Positions 39,726 to 46,558 of a stretch of DNA of 64,000 nucleotides are shown in pieces. The DNA is taken from positions 1,116,001 through 1,180,000 of the forward strand of contig NZ_JANPVN010000001.1 in the NCBI RefSeq assembly GCF_026157085.1, given 5' to 3'. Both the position numbers and the translations under genes were made by a program. The DNA is from Sphingomicrobium arenosum. GTDB taxonomy: Bacteria; Pseudomonadota; Alphaproteobacteria; Sphingomonadales; Sphingomonadaceae. Numbering within the stretch: the stretch's first letter is position 1; each line of letters opens with the position of its first letter. Under the pieces are notes generated by a model, which was not told the origin of the DNA, did no database searches, and saw only the letters and a program-made list of their open reading frames with translations.

Positions 39726-39752
39726 GTAACCGATCGCCCTGCTGCCGCGAAC
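39726..39752 (+). promoter_or_regulatory. SigF-type ECF promoter of the buf operon
   Basis: GTAACC (39726-39731), 16 bases, then CGAAC (39748-39752). This agrees with the GTAACC-N16-CGAA pattern I recall for Caulobacter SigF targets. It is placed 50 bases upstream of the bufA start and the operon itself encodes a SigF-type factor, which makes autoregulation very likely. Confidence 0.7.
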
Positions 39753-39801
39753 TGGAGGTCAGCGGGGCATGAGCTTCCGCGCAACATCGGAGCATCATCA
39801 C

Positions 39802-40140
39802 ATGACCAACCTGAAAACCACCGCCGCCGCCACCGCACTGCTCGCCCTCGCCGCCTGTTCGAGCGAGGGTCAGGCCCCCGCCTCCCCCGACAGCGGTGCC
39901 AGCACATTGGAAGGCGCCGAGCTCACCGACGCCAGCGCCGAGAAGGTCAAATGCTATGGCGTCGCGCTGGCCGGCAAGAACGACTGCGCCGCCGGCCCCG
40001 GCACCAGCTGCGCGGGGACCTCGACCGTCGATTACCAGGGCAATGCCTGGAAATATGTCGATGGCGGCGAGGAGGCCTGCACCGATCTCGGCGGTACGCT
40101 GACCGAGCAGGACAACGACGAGCCGGGCCTGCCCGCCTAG
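39802..40140 (+). CDS. bufA: DUF2282 bufferin-type RiPP precursor (BufA1-like) with lipobox
   Basis: A 112-residue DUF2282 protein. The N-terminus [19 protein letters not shown] ends in a lipobox (Cys19), where most family members have an ordinary signal peptide. The core has [25 protein letters not shown] with Cys51, Cys62 and Cys70, then Cys93. Known bufferins are periplasmic, cysteine-modified peptides that bind copper and are matured by a DUF692 enzyme, encoded just downstream here. The start at 39802 is chosen over 39769, whose ribosome site would lie at the predicted transcript start. Confidence 0.88.
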
Positions 40141-40153
40141 AGGCACGGCTCAT

Positions 40154-40209
40154 GGTGCCCCGCCCGCCCGCATGCCCGATCCCTCCGGGTGCCGAGCGGG
40201 AGGGGCACC
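40154..40209 (+). terminator. Intra-operon hairpin between bufA and bufB (attenuator)
   Basis: GGTGCCCCGCCCGC (40154-40167) pairs with GCGGGAGGGGCACC (40196-40209) in a 14-base stem with one mismatch, followed by GCCCTTTCCTT. It begins 14 bases after the bufA stop. A leaky terminator or stabilising hairpin here would give more precursor mRNA than enzyme mRNA, as in many RiPP operons. Confidence 0.55.
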
Positions 40210-40237
40210 GCCCTTTCCTTCCTCAGGGACACGCATC

Positions 40238-41098
40238 ATGACCCAGCCCTCTCTCCCGACCAGCGGCGGCATCGGACTGAAGCCCGAGCATTTCGAGGCC
40301 TTCCTCGACGCCCGCGCCAAGGGCACCGGCCCGACATGGGTCGAGGTGCACCCGCAAAATTACATGATGGCGGGCGGGCCGATGCATCGCTGGCTTGAGG
40401 CCGTGCGCGACGCGGCCCCCGTCAGCTTTCATTCGGTCGGCCTGTCGATTGGCGATCCCGACGGCTGCGACCGCGACGAATTGGGCCGCCTCGCCCGCCT
40501 CGCCGAGCGCTACGAACCGGCCATGATCTCCGACCACCTCAGCTGGTCGAGCCTCGGCGGCGAAGCGCTACCCGATCTCCTGCCGCTCCCCATGACCGAC
40601 GAGAGCCTCGCCCATTTCGTCCGCGAAGTGGACCGCATCCAGACCCGTCTCAAACGCCCGATCCTGATCGAGAACCCCAGCCGCATGATCGCCTTCGCGC
40701 AGGACAGCTATGACGAAGCCGACTTCCTCGCCGAACTGTCGCGCCGCTCGGGATGCGGGCTGCTCGTCGACGTCAACAACATCCTCGTCGCGCGCACCAA
40801 TGTCGGGCTCGATCCCATCGCCTATCTCGATGCGCTCCCGCTCCACGCCATCGCCGAGGTCCATGTCGCGGGACATATGGTCGAAGAGCATGAGGGCGGC
40901 GCGTTCCTCGCGATCGACGATCACGGCAGCCCCGTCAGCGAGGAATGCTGGGCGCTCCTCGACGCGCTGCTCGCCCGCACCGGCCCGCGCCCGGTGTTGG
41001 TTGAGCGCGACAATGACGTGCCGCCCTTCGCCGAATTGGCCGCCGAAGCCGCGCGCGCCACCCGCGCCATCCAAGGGGCGCTGCGCCATGCAGCCTGA
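40238..41098 (+). CDS. bufB: DUF692 multinuclear iron oxygenase (MNIO), BufB-like
   Basis: A 286-residue TIM-barrel enzyme of the DUF692/MNIO family, which oxidatively modifies cysteines of RiPP precursors (MbnB and BufB are known members). Probable metal ligands lie in SFHSVGLSIG (His65), ISDHLSW (His100), ILIENPS (Glu145), LLVDVNNI (Asp178), EVHVAGH (His209, His213) and IDDHGSPV. AGGGA precedes the ATG at 40238. The next gene begins inside it. The target is presumably the bufA product. Confidence 0.94.
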   Translation: MTQPSLPTSGGIGLKPEHFEAFLDARAKGTGPTWVEVHPQNYMMAGGPMHRWLEAVRDAAPVSFHSVGLSIGDPDGCDRDELGRLARLAERYEPAMISDHLSWSSLGGEALPDLLPLPMTDESLAHFVREVDRIQTRLKRPILIENPSRMIAFAQDSYDEADFLAELSRRSGCGLLVDVNNILVARTNVGLDPIAYLDALPLHAIAEVHVAGHMVEEHEGGAFLAIDDHGSPVSEECWALLDALLARTGPRPVLVERDNDVPPFAELAAEAARATRAIQGALRHAA

Positions 41099-41774
41099 TG
41101 CGCACATCGCCCTTGCCGACACGCTCGCCCACGGGCCCGCGCGTCTGCCCGCCGATCTCCTCGCCGGACCGCGCGCCGCCCAACTGCGGGGTCTCAAGGC
41201 CTATGCCAATACGATCAGCCATGCGCGCCACGTCGCGCTCGAGGATAGCTACCCCCGCCTTCGCGACGCCATGGGGCACGGCGCCTTCCACGACGCCGCG
41301 CGCGCGTTCTTCCTTGCCCGCGAACCGCGCCGCCGCCCCCTGCGCCTGATCGGCGCGGGGTTCGCCGAAACGCTTACCGCACCAGCACAGCGCGACCTCG
41401 CCCGCGCCGAATGGCTCTGGCTCGAGGCGCATGGTGCGCCCGATGCCCCCGCCGTCGGACTCGCGACCATCGCCGGTCTCACGCCCGAGGCGCTTCTCGC
41501 CGCGCGCGTCGCCGCGCATCCGGCGCTGCGCTCCCTCGCGCTCGAGGACCCCGCGTCCTTCGCCTGGGACGGGGTGGAACCGGGCGCCACCCACCTCCTC
41601 GTCACCCGCCCTGAGGCGCGCCGCGCGATGAACGCCATCACGCCTGAAACCTTCGCCCTTGCCTGCGATCTGAACCGCCCTGCCACCATGACGGCGCTGC
41701 TCGAGCGCGACCCCGCCGCCACCACCGCGCTCGTCGCCGCCGGCGCGCTCACCCCTGTCCCGGAGCTCCTCTAA
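41088..41774 (+). CDS. bufC: DUF2063 partner protein, BufC-like
   Basis: A 228-residue protein with an N-terminal DUF2063 DNA-binding-like/partner domain (GLKAYANTISHARHVALEDSYPRLRDAMG) and a C-terminal domain. DUF2063 proteins accompany DUF692 enzymes; MbnC, a related partner, forms the heterodimer that holds the precursor leader. The ATG lies 11 bases inside bufB, so synthesis is coupled. This supports a BufB-BufC complex acting on BufA. Confidence 0.9.
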   Translation: MQPDAHIALADTLAHGPARLPADLLAGPRAAQLRGLKAYANTISHARHVALEDSYPRLRDAMGHGAFHDAARAFFLAREPRRRPLRLIGAGFAETLTAPAQRDLARAEWLWLEAHGAPDAPAVGLATIAGLTPEALLAARVAAHPALRSLALEDPASFAWDGVEPGATHLLVTRPEARRAMNAITPETFALACDLNRPATMTALLERDPAATTALVAAGALTPVPELL

Positions 41775-42217
41775 TGCCCCTGTTCGACCGCTTCCGCCGC
41801 CTCGCCGAGCGCCCCCTCGTCTCCGACCTTGTCCTGCTCGCCGCCCGCCTCGGCCTCGCTGCCATCTTCTGGCAGTCGGGCCGCACCAAGGTCGAGGAGG
41901 GCAGCCTGTTCACGATCAGCGACACCACCTATTTCCTCTTCGCCAACGACTATGCCGGCGTGCCTTTTCTCCCGCCCGCCATCGCCGCATTACTGGCGAC
42001 CGCCGCCGAGCATCTCTTCCCCATCCTCCTCGCGCTGGGTCTGACCACCCGTCTCGCCGCCGCCGGGCTGCTCGGCATGACGCTGGTCATCCAGCTGTTC
42101 GTCTATCCGCAGGCCTTCTTCGTCCCGCACCTTGGCTGGATCGCGCTGAGTCTTGTTCTCCTCACGCAGGGACCGGGACGCCTCAGCACTGATTTCCTGC
42201 TAGGTAGACGGGCATGA
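41774..42217 (+). CDS. bufD: DoxX-family membrane protein, BufD-like
   Basis: A 147-residue DoxX/quinol-oxidase-subunit-like protein with about four transmembrane helices (LVLLAARLGLAAIFWQSGRTKVE; FLPPAIAALLATAAEHLFPILLALGL). DoxX proteins are the usual fourth member of bufferin and gig operons; their role there is unproven, with redox or metal handling in the membrane suggested. Start overlaps the bufC stop (TAATG), and its stop overlaps the sigma factor start. Confidence 0.9.
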   Translation: MPLFDRFRRLAERPLVSDLVLLAARLGLAAIFWQSGRTKVEEGSLFTISDTTYFLFANDYAGVPFLPPAIAALLATAAEHLFPILLALGLTTRLAAAGLLGMTLVIQLFVYPQAFFVPHLGWIALSLVLLTQGPGRLSTDFLLGRRA

Positions 42218-42747
42218 GCCGTCTTGGCGATCACGACCTGCGCACCCTGATGCGCGCCGCACAGGCCGGCGACCGCGCCGCCTATCGCAGTGCGCTCGCG
42301 GCGCTCGCCGACTGGTTGCGCGGCTATTTCGCCCACCGCATCGCGCCCGGACAGGTCGACGATCTCGTCCAGGAAGTGCTCATCGCGGTCCATGCCAAGC
42401 GTGCCACCTACGACCCCGACCTGCCCATCTATCCCTGGGTCGCGGCCATCGCCCGCTACCGCTGGATCGACGCCTTGAGAAAGATGGCACGCACGCCCGA
42501 GACCGCGCTCGATATCGAGCCGCCCGTCGACAGCGAGGAAGAACCCGTGCTCGCCCGCCTCAGTCTCGATCAGTTGCTGGGCCAATTGCCAACGGCCCAA
42601 GGCCAGGCGATCACCCTGACCAAGGTCGAAGGACGCTCGGTCGCCGAAACCGCCACCATCACCGGGCAGAGCGAAAGCGCGGTGAAAGTGAATGTCCATC
42701 GCGGCCTCAAGAAACTGGCCGCGCTCGTCGAAAGCCAACCCCTATGA
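42214..42747 (+). CDS. sigF: ECF RNA polymerase sigma factor, SigF-type
   Basis: A 177-residue ECF sigma factor. Region 2 includes QVDDLVQEVLIAVHAKRATYDPDLPIYPWVAAIARYRWIDALR, and region 4 is LSLDQLLGQLPTAQGQAITLTKVEGRSVAETATITGQSESAVKVNVHRGLKKL. The helix-turn-helix is clear. It is followed by a DUF1109 anti-sigma gene with a four-base overlap, the arrangement of sigF-nrsF in Caulobacter. It probably drives its own operon from the promoter at 39726. Confidence 0.9.
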   Translation: MSRLGDHDLRTLMRAAQAGDRAAYRSALAALADWLRGYFAHRIAPGQVDDLVQEVLIAVHAKRATYDPDLPIYPWVAAIARYRWIDALRKMARTPETALDIEPPVDSEEEPVLARLSLDQLLGQLPTAQGQAITLTKVEGRSVAETATITGQSESAVKVNVHRGLKKLAALVESQPL

Positions 42748-43373
42748 ACACCGATTATCTCATCGACCAGCTCAGCGCCGACGCCGCGCCCGTGCGCCCG
42801 CTGTCACTGCCCCTCGTCCGCCTCGCGCTTGTCGCCACCGCCTTGGGGACCATCCTCCTCACGCTCGCGTTCTGGGGACCGCGCCCGCAACTCCTCACCG
42901 GCACTGCCGATGCCGTCACCCTTCTCCTTGCCGCGCTCCTCGGCCTGCTCGCCATCGCCGCGGGTCTCGCCGCGACGCGGCTCGCCCGCCCTGCCGTGGG
43001 CGGCGTCCCCGGAGGCGGGCTGTGGCTGTTCGGCGCGATCCTGCTCTTTCCTGCCATCGCTCTCGTGCAGCAGCTGCTCGGTCATGACGAGGGCGCCCAG
43101 TCGTTCCTCGGCATCTATTGCCTCGCCTCCGGCCTCGGCATGAGCCTGTTCACCGCCGCCTTCCTGACCCTCCACCTGCGCCGCGGTGCCCCCGTGCTGC
43201 CCGAGCGCGCTGGCCTCCTCGCAGGCATCGCCTCGGGCGCGGTCGGCGCGCTCGCCATTACCTTGGAATGCGGCGGCTCGACCTTCGCGCATCTCGCCCT
43301 TTGGCATGTCGCGATCGTTGCGGCCTGGGCGCTGGTCGGGCGGACGCTGCTGGCGCGGCTGATCCGCTGGTAG
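42744..43373 (+). CDS. nrsF: DUF1109 anti-sigma factor, NrsF-like
   Basis: A 209-residue membrane protein with six predicted transmembrane helices and a short cytoplasmic N-terminus (MNTDYLIDQLSADAAPVRPL) suited to hold the sigma factor. Two cysteines, Cys126 (GIYCLAS) and Cys176 (LECGGS), are 50 residues apart, the same spacing as the sensor cysteines I recall for Caulobacter NrsF (131 and 181). Metal binding to them would release the sigma factor. It ends the operon. Confidence 0.88.
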   Translation: MNTDYLIDQLSADAAPVRPLSLPLVRLALVATALGTILLTLAFWGPRPQLLTGTADAVTLLLAALLGLLAIAAGLAATRLARPAVGGVPGGGLWLFGAILLFPAIALVQQLLGHDEGAQSFLGIYCLASGLGMSLFTAAFLTLHLRRGAPVLPERAGLLAGIASGAVGALAITLECGGSTFAHLALWHVAIVAAWALVGRTLLARLIRW

Positions 43374-43945: not shown

Positions 43946-46558
43946 ATGAAAAAGATGCTTCTTTGCAGCAGCGCCCTCGTGGCCGTTGCTCTCCCGGGTG
44001 TCGCCAGCGCGCAGTCGACCGGCTCGGTCGACTTCGACGATGACGCGATCGTCATCACCGGCACCGCCGAAACCGACGTCGGTGGCGTCGAGATCCCCGA
44101 CACTCCCAAGGCCAAGCAGGTCCTCGACGAGGAAATCATCCGTCGTCAGCGCCCCGGTCAGTCGGTCAACGACATCGTCAATCTCGTCCCGGGCGTCAGC
44201 TTCCAGAACAACGACCCCTGGGGTTCGTCGGGCGGCGGCTTCACCATCCGCGGCTTCACCTCGGATCGCATCTCGCAGACGCTCGACGGCATCCCGCTGA
44301 ACGATTCGGGTAACTACGCGCTCTACACCAACCAGCAGGTCGACAGCGAAGTCCTCGAAGAGGTCAACGTCAACCTCGGCGTCACCGACGTCGACAGCCC
44401 GACCGCCTCGGCCGTCGGTGGCACCATCAACATCCGCACCCGTCGTCCGGCCAAGGACATGGGCTTCACCGGCACCGTCAGCTACGGCAACGTCATCGCC
44501 GACGGTTCGAACATGGAGCGTCACTACAACCGCGTGTTCGGCATGGTCGACACCGGCGACATCACCGGCAATGGCCTCACCGCCTTCGTGTCGGGTAGCT
44601 ACACCTATTATCGTGTTCCGTGGAACGACTATGGCAAGGTGCGCAAGCAGCAGTACAACGCCCGCCTGTTCCAGGAACTGGGCAATGGCGACTTCATCTC
44701 GCTGACCGGTCACTACAACCAGAACCGCAACAACTTCGGTGGTTCGGTGCGCTTCAGCGCGCTCCAGAATGCGCTCGAGGCCGGCAACAAGGAATTCCGC
44801 TTCACCGCCGACGACGTCGATGGTGACTGCACGATCGCGCCGCCGACCCCCGGCGTCGCCGACTTCTACAGCGACAGCTCGTCCTCGGGCGATTGCGGCT
44901 CGGAATTCTCGCGTCGTTACAACCCGTCGAACACCGGCAACATCCGCGGTTCGGCGCTGTTCAACCTGACCGACAAGCTGGTTCTGACGCTCGACCCGAG
45001 CTTCCAGTACGTCAAGGCCAACGGTGGCGGCCCCGAAGGTCTCATCGAAGCGCCCTGCTACGTGCGTGACGACGGTCGCTTCCCGTTCTGCTCGACCAGC
45101 GACAACGGCAACCAGGCCATCACTGGCGTCATCGGCGGTCGCTACTATCTCGGTCGCGACCTCAATGGCGACGGCGATATCCTCGACACCGTTGCGGGCA
45201 ACGATCCCAGCCAGACGCGCACCTATCGCTACGCGCTGATCTCGGGCCTCGCCTATGATATCAACGACGATCACCGCATCCGTTTCGCCTACACGTTCGA
45301 TTTCTCGGACCACCGTCAGACCGGCCAGGTTGCGCTGATGGACCAGTTCGGCGAACCGCTCGACGTGTTCCCGGTGAACATTGCGCTCGAAACCGTCGAT
45401 GGGTTCGAACTCAACAAGCGTAACCGTCAGTCCTATGCGATCCTCAACCAGTTCTCGACCGAATATCGCGGTCGTTACCTGAATGATGATCTCACGCTGG
45501 TCGCCGGTCTTCGCCTGCCGTTCTTCACGCGTGAACTCGACAACCGCTGCTACTCGACCACGGGTGACGCGGGCGACGCCTTCGTCGACTGCGTCGGCTA
45601 TGACGCTGGTCAGGACGTGAGCGACTTCATCGACGCGCGTCCGTACGAAATCGACCCAGTGACGGGCGAAGTGTCGGGCATCGCCCCGCCGCAGGAGCGC
45701 ACGCTCGAGTATAACGAGCTGCTTCCCAACGTCGGCTTCACCTATGCCTTTGGCGACGCGTCGGTCTTCGGCAACTATGCCCGCGGCCTCTCGGTCCCGA
45801 GCACCGACACGCTCTATGCGGCGCTGTACTATCCGGAAGGCGACGTTCGCGCCGAACCGGCTCCGGAAACCACCGACAGCTTCGACGGCGGTCTTCGTTT
45901 CCAGAACCGCAACGTGCAGGCTCAGATCGCTGGCTACTACACCAAGTACAACAACCGCCTCGCGGTCAGCTACGATCCGGAACTCGACGAGTCGATCACG
46001 CGCAACCTCGGCCCGGTCAACAAGTATGGCTTCGATGCGTCGGTGGCCTACAGCGTGACCCCCGACACCCTGCTTTACGTCTTTGGCGGCGTGAACGAGT
46101 CGGAAATCACCGAGAACGTGCTCGAGGGTCGCACCTGCGATGCCGACGATGTCACCGATCCGATCTACTTCTGTGACGGTGGTGACGGCGGCGTTCGTTA
46201 CTTCGCGACCGAAGGCAAGCGTGAAGCCGGTGCCCCGCTGTGGATGATCGGCGGTCGTGTTCAGCAGCGCTTCGGTGCGGTGGAACTCGGTGCGCAGGCC
46301 AAGTACACTGGCAAGCGCTTCGCCAATGACGTGAACACCATCGAAGTCGACCCCTATGCGGTCGTCGATCTCGACGCGCGTATCGACCTTGGCTACCTCG
46401 GCGACACGCTGGGTGACGCTGCGCTGCAGCTGAACGTCACCAACCTGTTCGACGAAGGCTATCTCGGTTACGTGAGCCCGTCGTTCGACAGCGATCCGTT
46501 CTTCATCCAGATCGGTGCGCCGCGTGCGTTCTCGGCCTCGCTGCTCTTCGGCTTCTAA
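43946..46558 (+). CDS. TonB-dependent outer-membrane receptor
   Basis: An 870-residue TonB-dependent receptor: signal peptide (MKKMLLCSSALVAVALPGVASAQ), a TonB-box-like DDAIVITGT, a plug domain (QSVNDIVNLVPGVSFQ, FTIRGFTSDRISQTLDGIPLND) and a 22-strand barrel ending in aromatic SASLLFGF. Cysteine pairs in loops (near residues 293/313, 368/378, 533/549, 731/747) suggest disulfide-stabilised extracellular loops. Arginine is mostly CGT/CGC and glycine mostly GGT/GGC, unlike neighbours, which points to high expression. The ligand is unknown. Confidence 0.93.
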   Translation: MKKMLLCSSALVAVALPGVASAQSTGSVDFDDDAIVITGTAETDVGGVEIPDTPKAKQVLDEEIIRRQRPGQSVNDIVNLVPGVSFQNNDPWGSSGGGFTIRGFTSDRISQTLDGIPLNDSGNYALYTNQQVDSEVLEEVNVNLGVTDVDSPTASAVGGTINIRTRRPAKDMGFTGTVSYGNVIADGSNMERHYNRVFGMVDTGDITGNGLTAFVSGSYTYYRVPWNDYGKVRKQQYNARLFQELGNGDFISLTGHYNQNRNNFGGSVRFSALQNALEAGNKEFRFTADDVDGDCTIAPPTPGVADFYSDSSSSGDCGSEFSRRYNPSNTGNIRGSALFNLTDKLVLTLDPSFQYVKANGGGPEGLIEAPCYVRDDGRFPFCSTSDNGNQAITGVIGGRYYLGRDLNGDGDILDTVAGNDPSQTRTYRYALISGLAYDINDDHRIRFAYTFDFSDHRQTGQVALMDQFGEPLDVFPVNIALETVDGFELNKRNRQSYAILNQFSTEYRGRYLNDDLTLVAGLRLPFFTRELDNRCYSTTGDAGDAFVDCVGYDAGQDVSDFIDARPYEIDPVTGEVSGIAPPQERTLEYNELLPNVGFTYAFGDASVFGNYARGLSVPSTDTLYAALYYPEGDVRAEPAPETTDSFDGGLRFQNRNVQAQIAGYYTKYNNRLAVSYDPELDESITRNLGPVNKYGFDASVAYSVTPDTLLYVFGGVNESEITENVLEGRTCDADDVTDPIYFCDGGDGGVRYFATEGKREAGAPLWMIGGRVQQRFGAVELGAQAKYTGKRFANDVNTIEVDPYAVVDLDARIDLGYLGDTLGDAALQLNVTNLFDEGYLGYVSPSFDSDPFFIQIGAPRAFSASLLFGF

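Follow-up and report, generated by a model that had tools for sequence, protein, structure and literature searches.

Why would a bacterium tether a copper sponge to a membrane? Bufferins have been described as copper sponges of the periplasm. The locus considered here lies at positions 39726-43373 of a 64,000-nucleotide (nt) stretch of the Sphingomicrobium arenosum genome (contig NZ_JANPVN010000001.1, 1,116,001 to 1,180,000; hereafter the window), and it encodes a bufferin operon in which a sole DUF2282 precursor, a predicted lipoprotein, stands beside a sole MNIO enzyme. We consider it likely that these genes form an autoregulated copper-stress operon, controlled by SigF and NrsF, whose product is a membrane-tethered, thiooxazole-bearing copper buffer. 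Such a pairing is a clean natural test case for two questions: whether a lipid-anchored Buf1 bufferin becomes modified and works, and what reason bacteria would have to tether it.

All six open reading frames (ORFs) were found on the plus strand at the positions and in the order given by an initial annotation, each with Pfam support. bufA (39802-40140) encodes a 112-residue Buf1-type precursor that profile searches place in DUF2282 (E = 3e-20), and bufB (40238-41098) an MNIO bufferin maturase of PF05114, formerly DUF692 (E = 4e-93). bufC (41088-41774) encodes a DUF2063 partner (E = 7e-11) whose predicted fold also resembles a recognition element (RRE) for ribosomally synthesized and post-translationally modified peptides (RiPPs), bufD (41774-42217) a DoxX-family membrane protein (E = 1e-17), sigF (42214-42747) an extracytoplasmic function (ECF) sigma factor (sigma-70 region 4, E = 3e-14; region 2, E = 2e-8), and nrsF (42744-43373) a membrane anti-sigma factor (NrsF, PF06532, E = 2e-30; the Caulobacter protein is listed as DUF1109 in PMC3511200). 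A gap of 97 nt separates bufA from bufB; beyond it, each gene overlaps the next, by 11 nt (bufB/bufC), 1 nt (bufC/bufD), 4 nt (bufD/sigF) and 4 nt (sigF/nrsF), and this spacing and order suggest a single transcript. Profile, motif and fold tests support the annotation as a bufferin operon that includes a dedicated sigma/anti-sigma pair; only the curated cut-off for a Caulobacter-type NrsF was missed. The pair does stand at the operon end, as annotated, but the self-contained layout is already in print, since clusters of DUF2282, MNIO, DUF2063 and DoxX genes with sigma and NrsF genes have been reported (PMC12452194). The six-gene plan is published, and the operon itself is ordinary for its group, not new. 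Two points were absent from the initial annotation: a fifth BufA cysteine, C19, within a lipobox, and the probable membership of an msrA gene, elsewhere in the genome, in the same regulon.

A sole precursor with a lipobox

BufA begins with a signal peptide that ends in a lipobox, LAA-C19 (Cys codon 39856-39858; called by rule and by eye), at the end of the hydrophobic stretch; a 31-residue acidic linker follows, and then a core with SCAG...C. The four core cysteines previously annotated are present (C51, C62, C70 and C93), and the core keeps the motif residues. We set the start at 39802 rather than at the upstream ATG at 39769, because the nearest relative aligns from 39802. BufA appears to be a lipoprotein, its lipidation and location being read from these sequence features. 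In the genome (2.56 Mb, 100% complete), DUF2282 and MNIO are each represented by one gene, and the two are adjacent. A search of the genome for a BufA2-type precursor gave no match, but its positive control was likewise silent.

We examined 108 unique DUF2282 precursors from 95 stretches, mostly of one family, with 11 stretches (L051-L061) from outside the sphingomonads; L061 (no recognisable core), BufA2-type rows with a CKG motif, L116 (N-masked) and one identical protein were excluded before counting. A precursor passed our rule if a lipobox tripeptide led into a Cys located at residue 17-24 and the next residue was Ser, Gly, Thr or Glu; the rule removes three false calls made by looser automatic detection (L077, L097 and L113). 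Twenty-six of the 108 precursors in this family-weighted sample pass it; the 82 that fail include doubtful rows, one each from L135, L099 and L057. The two groups also differ in traits for which the rule does not ask. The linker before the core has a median of 31.5 residues in the 26 lipobox precursors versus 15 in the other 82, and the median net charge of the mature part is -12 versus +6, with overlapping ranges.

A profile built from 22 of the 26 matched 100 of 289 genomes of the class. Outside the family, we classified one locus per genome in 36 matched genomes (28 best loci, and eight picked for a match reaching the signal region): 33 are of the soluble type, two have a lipobox and one is cut off (L229), as judged by rule or by eye. 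Lipidated Buf1 precursors would thus be common in the family and sparse elsewhere, in a sample that was not random. We dropped the idea that they are confined to the family, for which 0 of 21 classifiable loci outside had spoken, since L235 (genome G406) and L238 (genome G365) carry a lipobox. L238 has Asp at position +2; in Escherichia coli, Asp after the lipobox Cys keeps a lipoprotein in the inner membrane. As a separate observation, four stretches (L131, L138, L141 and L084) contain adjacent pairs of lipidated DUF2282 precursors, in each of which one member has a variant core, and no MNIO gene was found in these stretches; they are possibly orphan bufferins served by a maturase elsewhere.

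DUF2282 is present in 104 of 298 genomes of the family and in 29 of 61 genomes of the genus. Five of the 29 have a lipidated precursor as their only DUF2282 protein (G000, which is the genome of the window, G302, G328, G344 and G348; no bufB was found in the examined stretch of G328), six have a lipidated and a soluble precursor in tandem, two have a lipidated precursor with further unexamined copies, 15 have soluble precursors among those seen, and one is unclassified. In all six tandem operons, the promoter box precedes the lipidated gene, which is followed by the soluble gene and then by bufB; reversed order also occurs, outside the genus (L068 and L132). The window operon is without the soluble precursor that several close relatives have in tandem.

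A BufB tree was built from 60 hand-chosen sources, in 56 of which BufB was found; nine were dropped as presumed duplicates, close relatives or fragments, leaving 47 rows. An 11-row branch with support of 100/98 unites the six tandem operons with four lipidated-only operons (the window, S. astaxanthinifaciens L047, L199 and L184) and one soluble-only operon, and the nearest row to the window's BufB is the tandem L177. On the tree, the tandem and lipidated-only labels cluster no more than shuffled labels do (399 and 400 of 500 shuffles as low), and the direction of change is therefore a matter of interpretation. The simplest reading is a tandem ancestor with repeated loss of the soluble copy, which the tree does not prove. 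In the lipidated-only operons, BufB and BufC have, judging by gene content, only a lipidated substrate beside them.

The modifying enzymes look intact. An MNIO enzyme of bufferin type adjoins the precursor, in the order A-B-C: BufB scores 334.7 bits against a cut-off of 310 for the NCBIfam model MNIO_BufB. The solved homologue 3BWW aligns to BufB with E = 1.3e-35 and is identical at eleven conserved His, Asp, Glu and Asn positions (H65, H100, E145, D178, N180, N181, H209, D227, H229, E256 and D258), which are kept in 80-81 of 81 aligned rows and are presumably the iron ligands. DUF2063 is the sole Pfam match of BufC. A profile from 40 BufC relatives found NGO1945 (3dee; E = 9e-4) as the sole PDB sequence at E <= 0.01, and the AlphaFold model of BufC (mean predicted local distance difference test score, pLDDT, 93.9) had only two Foldseek matches at E <= 0.001, with moderate template modelling (TM) scores of 0.42-0.63: NGO1945 again (E = 6.8e-4, TM 0.57/0.63) and chain A of the TglHI complex (8hi7_A; E = 3.9e-4, TM 0.48/0.42, root-mean-square deviation 7.9), which its length suggests is the partner chain. 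Both NGO1945 and the TglHI partner have been named as DUF2063/RRE partners of MNIO enzymes, and DUF2063 plus RRE is the partner type of bufferins (PMC12452194). The predicted BufC fold resembles that of known MNIO partners. BufD matched the NCBIfam HvfX-family model below its cut-off (50.9 versus 80 bits).

Predicted control by SigF and NrsF, and a candidate msrA target

A predicted SigF promoter box, GTAACC-N16-CGAA, lies on the plus strand at 39726-39751, 76 nt upstream of the bufA start. It matches the published Caulobacter SigF motif exactly (PMC3511200). It is the only exact box in the window; with one mismatch allowed, there are three sites versus 1.6 expected by chance. We searched the relatives for exact boxes with a spacer of 15-18 within 300 nt upstream of the precursor, and found one before 51 of the 108 DUF2282 precursors, versus two of 2160 mononucleotide-shuffled upstream sequences. 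Among all 300-nt tiles of the precursor loci, true promoters included, 106 of 5668 have an exact box. Thirteen of the 26 lipidated precursors have one, in every case at -73 to -86.

With sigF and nrsF placed further along the same string of overlapping genes, SigF would be expected to drive its own synthesis. NrsF has two conserved cysteines, C126 (59 of 59 aligned rows) and C176 (58 of 59), which by order and spacing, rather than by direct alignment, appear equivalent to C131 and C181 of the Caulobacter protein. In Caulobacter, the cysteine pair is needed to hold SigF-dependent genes at their basal level (PMC3511200).

The exact box alone is uninformative for finding further SigF targets, with 14 matches in the genome versus 28 for the reversed pattern, and we gave up that approach. 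One candidate can be assessed by genome comparison. The window's genome encodes an exported methionine sulfoxide reductase, MsrA, with a lipobox of its own (L142, G000:C1:688753-689400; PF01625, E = 2e-54), and an exact SigF-type box (G000:C1:688692-688717) lies 32-35 nt before the gene; in this genome alone, the box is not above chance. We examined 190 nt before msrA in 30 genomes of the genus for which the best MsrA locus was returned (of 58 matched and 61 searched), accepting a spacer of 16 and at most one mismatch. The box is present in 11 of 17 genomes with DUF2282 versus one of 13 without (p = 0.002), and in 12 of 16 genomes with NrsF versus none of 14 without (Fisher p = 2e-5); these p-values are optimistic, because the mismatch limit was set after some sites had been seen and related genomes are not independent. 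In genomes with and without NrsF, respectively, controls gave 1/96 and 1/84 for other stretches of the same loci, 1/16 and 0/14 for the other strand, and 0/16 and 1/14 for the reversed motif. Four genomes with NrsF have no msrA box (G334, G302, G327 and G274). It is this comparison between genomes, not the exact box alone, that makes msrA credible as a SigF target, and msrA probably shares the SigF regulon. We also noted one locus, L156 (G347:C85), where an msrA gene with an exact SigF box lies about 5 kb from an NrsF gene on the same contig.

The Caulobacter SigF regulon includes MsrPQ (PMC8224329); a search for MsrP (PF00174) in the window's genome gave no match. The link between SigF and MsrA suggests that copper buffering and envelope methionine repair are stably coupled, with the repair enzyme exchanged (MsrPQ in Caulobacter, MsrA here).

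Proposed mechanism and its alternatives

The mechanism that we propose joins what is observed here, namely gene identities, promoter box, NrsF cysteines, lipobox, single copy and partner fold, with a modification, a metal and a signalling route borrowed from published relatives. Metal stress in the envelope, with copper the most likely metal, would disturb NrsF through its two cysteines and so release SigF, which would transcribe the operon, including sigF and nrsF themselves, from the box at 39726. BufB with BufC would oxidise core cysteines of BufA in the cytoplasm, most likely C62 and C70, to 5-thiooxazoles. Sec would export the precursor, which would then be lipidated on C19 and cleaved on the N-terminal side of that residue; the residue at +2 is Ser, not Asp, and by the sorting rule stated above, BufA would probably be moved to the outer membrane. 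The tethered peptide would bind Cu(I) and buffer envelope copper, with BufD assisting in an unspecified way, and the exported, probably lipid-anchored MsrA, likely of the same regulon, would repair oxidised methionines. Indeed, the Caulobacter counterpart operon is SigF-dependent and copper-induced, and a sigF mutant is copper-sensitive (PMC8224329); the modification of Buf1 sits on central cysteines (PMC12452194). More tentatively, and with somewhat less than even confidence, we suggest that the SigF copper response of one Sphingomicrobium branch is membrane-tethered as a whole: a lipoprotein, perhaps shed in vesicles, as the sole Buf1 bufferin beside a lipid-anchored MsrA of the same regulon would place buffering and methionine repair at the membrane surface rather than in the free periplasm.

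Several observations weigh against this account. For 13 of the 26 lipidated precursors, no exact box lies in the upstream 300 nt (two of them, in L068 and L132, follow a soluble precursor in the same gene string, and the other 11 are without an adjoining bufB), and exact boxes are not enriched genome-wide. The msrA box lies within the 3' end of an upstream ORF (FA_hydroxylase), and G302, a close relative, is among the NrsF genomes that have no such box. In Caulobacter, where the genes are arranged differently, metal stress brings no strong autoregulation of SigF (PMC3511200). NrsF reaches only 58.3 of the 300 bits required by the NCBIfam equivalog AntiSigF_NrsF, so the pair is best called SigF/NrsF-like, its equivalence to Caulobacter NrsF not being proved. 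Lastly, the AlphaFold model of BufA is poor (pLDDT 58.9), and the lipobox was called by rule rather than with SignalP.

That last point bears on the reading of BufA as an ordinary soluble bufferin, in which the C19 motif is coincidental or unused and signal peptidase I frees the peptide as in Caulobacter. The first bufferins to be described do act in the periplasm (PMC12452194), and the 82 precursors that fail the lipobox rule, a few doubtful rows among them, are the majority of our sample; nonetheless, we think a soluble product distinctly unlikely for this gene, given the position of C19 after LAA at the end of the hydrophobic stretch, the longer linker and acidic mature part that set the 26 rule-passing precursors apart, and the purification of a lipidated MNIO product, NedA, in a related family (PMC12636315). 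Far less probable still, in our view, is that the lipidated precursor is an unmodified accessory left behind when a soluble substrate was lost, with BufB and BufC deprived of their native substrate. The six sampled genomes of the genus with a tandem, where it is the soluble gene that adjoins bufB, would fit such a history, but bufB and bufC are intact and conserved, the BufA core keeps its motif residues, and the four lipidated-only operons of the BufB branch retain bufB with nothing but a lipidated precursor adjoining it.

The choice of stress is a separate matter. Caulobacter SigF was first tied to chromium and cadmium (PMC3511200), the gig system responds to gold as well as to copper (PMC10304878), and an ECF regulon that comprises msrAB and a DoxX operon reacts to hypochlorite (PMC7907618), so that the operon might serve mainly against chromium, cadmium, gold, or hypochlorite and other oxidants, with copper binding secondary. 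We regard this as unlikely, with something still to be said for it: mutation of sigF in Caulobacter impairs growth in copper and leaves sensitivity to chromium and cadmium unchanged (PMC8224329), and thiooxazole peptides bind copper (PMC13097082).

Setting of the operon and known systems

The locus appears to be resident in one branch of the genus. It is flanked by glmU, a phasin gene and phaR on one side and by tRNA-Arg(CCG) on the other, and these flanks are kept in four of the seven loci compared (L047, L048, L049 and L062), on which ground we set aside a recent insertion; they are not kept in L063, L064 and L065, three loci of the genus where the precursor is soluble and BufB is more distant, at 45-48% identity. 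Downstream of the tRNA gene lies a TonB-dependent receptor gene (43946-46558; Pfam plug and barrel) with no exact SigF box before it. Within the operon, a long G+C-rich hairpin on the plus strand (40154-40209) directly follows bufA in the bufA-bufB gap (z = -2.2; five of 200 dinucleotide shuffles fold as well). We folded ten operons individually, and the evidence from relatives is mixed: in eight of the ten, the 75-nt segment after the lipidated gene is equalled by at most one of 40 mononucleotide shuffles (that of L184 lies inside bufB), and folds of the whole gap in the same ten give z-scores from -2.4 to +0.6. As a guess, the hairpin may hold the yield of precursor above that of the enzyme.

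Among the papers listed in our literature searches on bufferins and DUF2282 as lipoproteins, on the Sphingomicrobium copper response and on sigma factors linked to Msr, DUF692 and DoxX, which did not cover supplementary files, none described this locus or a lipidated Buf1 as sole precursor. About 16% of Buf2 precursors are predicted lipoproteins, a statement that is the one mention of lipoproteins in its source and does not concern Buf1 (PMC12452194); a subset of bufferins is said elsewhere to have signal peptidase II signals, with the subtype not specified in the text seen (PMC12636315). What makes the operon a variant of known systems is its lipid-anchored sole precursor, together with the MsrA link; metal, modification and membrane location are predictions.

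The closest of these systems is the Caulobacter Buf1 operon (CC3254-CC3257 / CCNA_03363-03366 with SigF/NrsF), which shares the precursor, MNIO enzyme, DUF2063 partner, DoxX protein and ECF sigma factor, as well as an NrsF with two conserved cysteines, the GTAACC-N16-CGAA motif and an exported methionine sulfoxide reductase in the regulon (predicted here). By contrast, in S. arenosum the gene string itself closes with sigF and nrsF, the genome's one DUF2282 precursor carries a lipoprotein signal, and MsrA replaces MsrPQ, there being no PF00174 match in the genome. The gigPABT genes of Cupriavidus metallidurans, induced by copper and gold (PMC10304878), likewise combine the four core gene types with an ECF sigma gene and a predicted membrane anti-sigma gene (rpoQ-rsqA), but those sigma genes are divergent rather than at the operon end, and GigP is described as periplasmic with a 22-residue leader. 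The RiPP-lipoproteins DybA and NedA, made by MNIO enzymes, resemble BufA in having a lipobox Cys besides modified cysteines; lipidation has been demonstrated for the oxazolin NedA, but the cases proven experimentally comprise a chryseobasin-like peptide and an EGKCG oxazolin and no DUF2282 precursor (PMC12636315). In the RpoE2 regulon of Haemophilus, and in Neisseria relatives, an ECF sigma factor similarly controls an exported MsrAB together with an operon that includes a DoxX-like protein (PMC7907618); there, however, the anti-sigma factor is a 67-residue cytoplasmic protein, and the peptide of H. influenzae belongs to the EGKCG type (PMC13097082).

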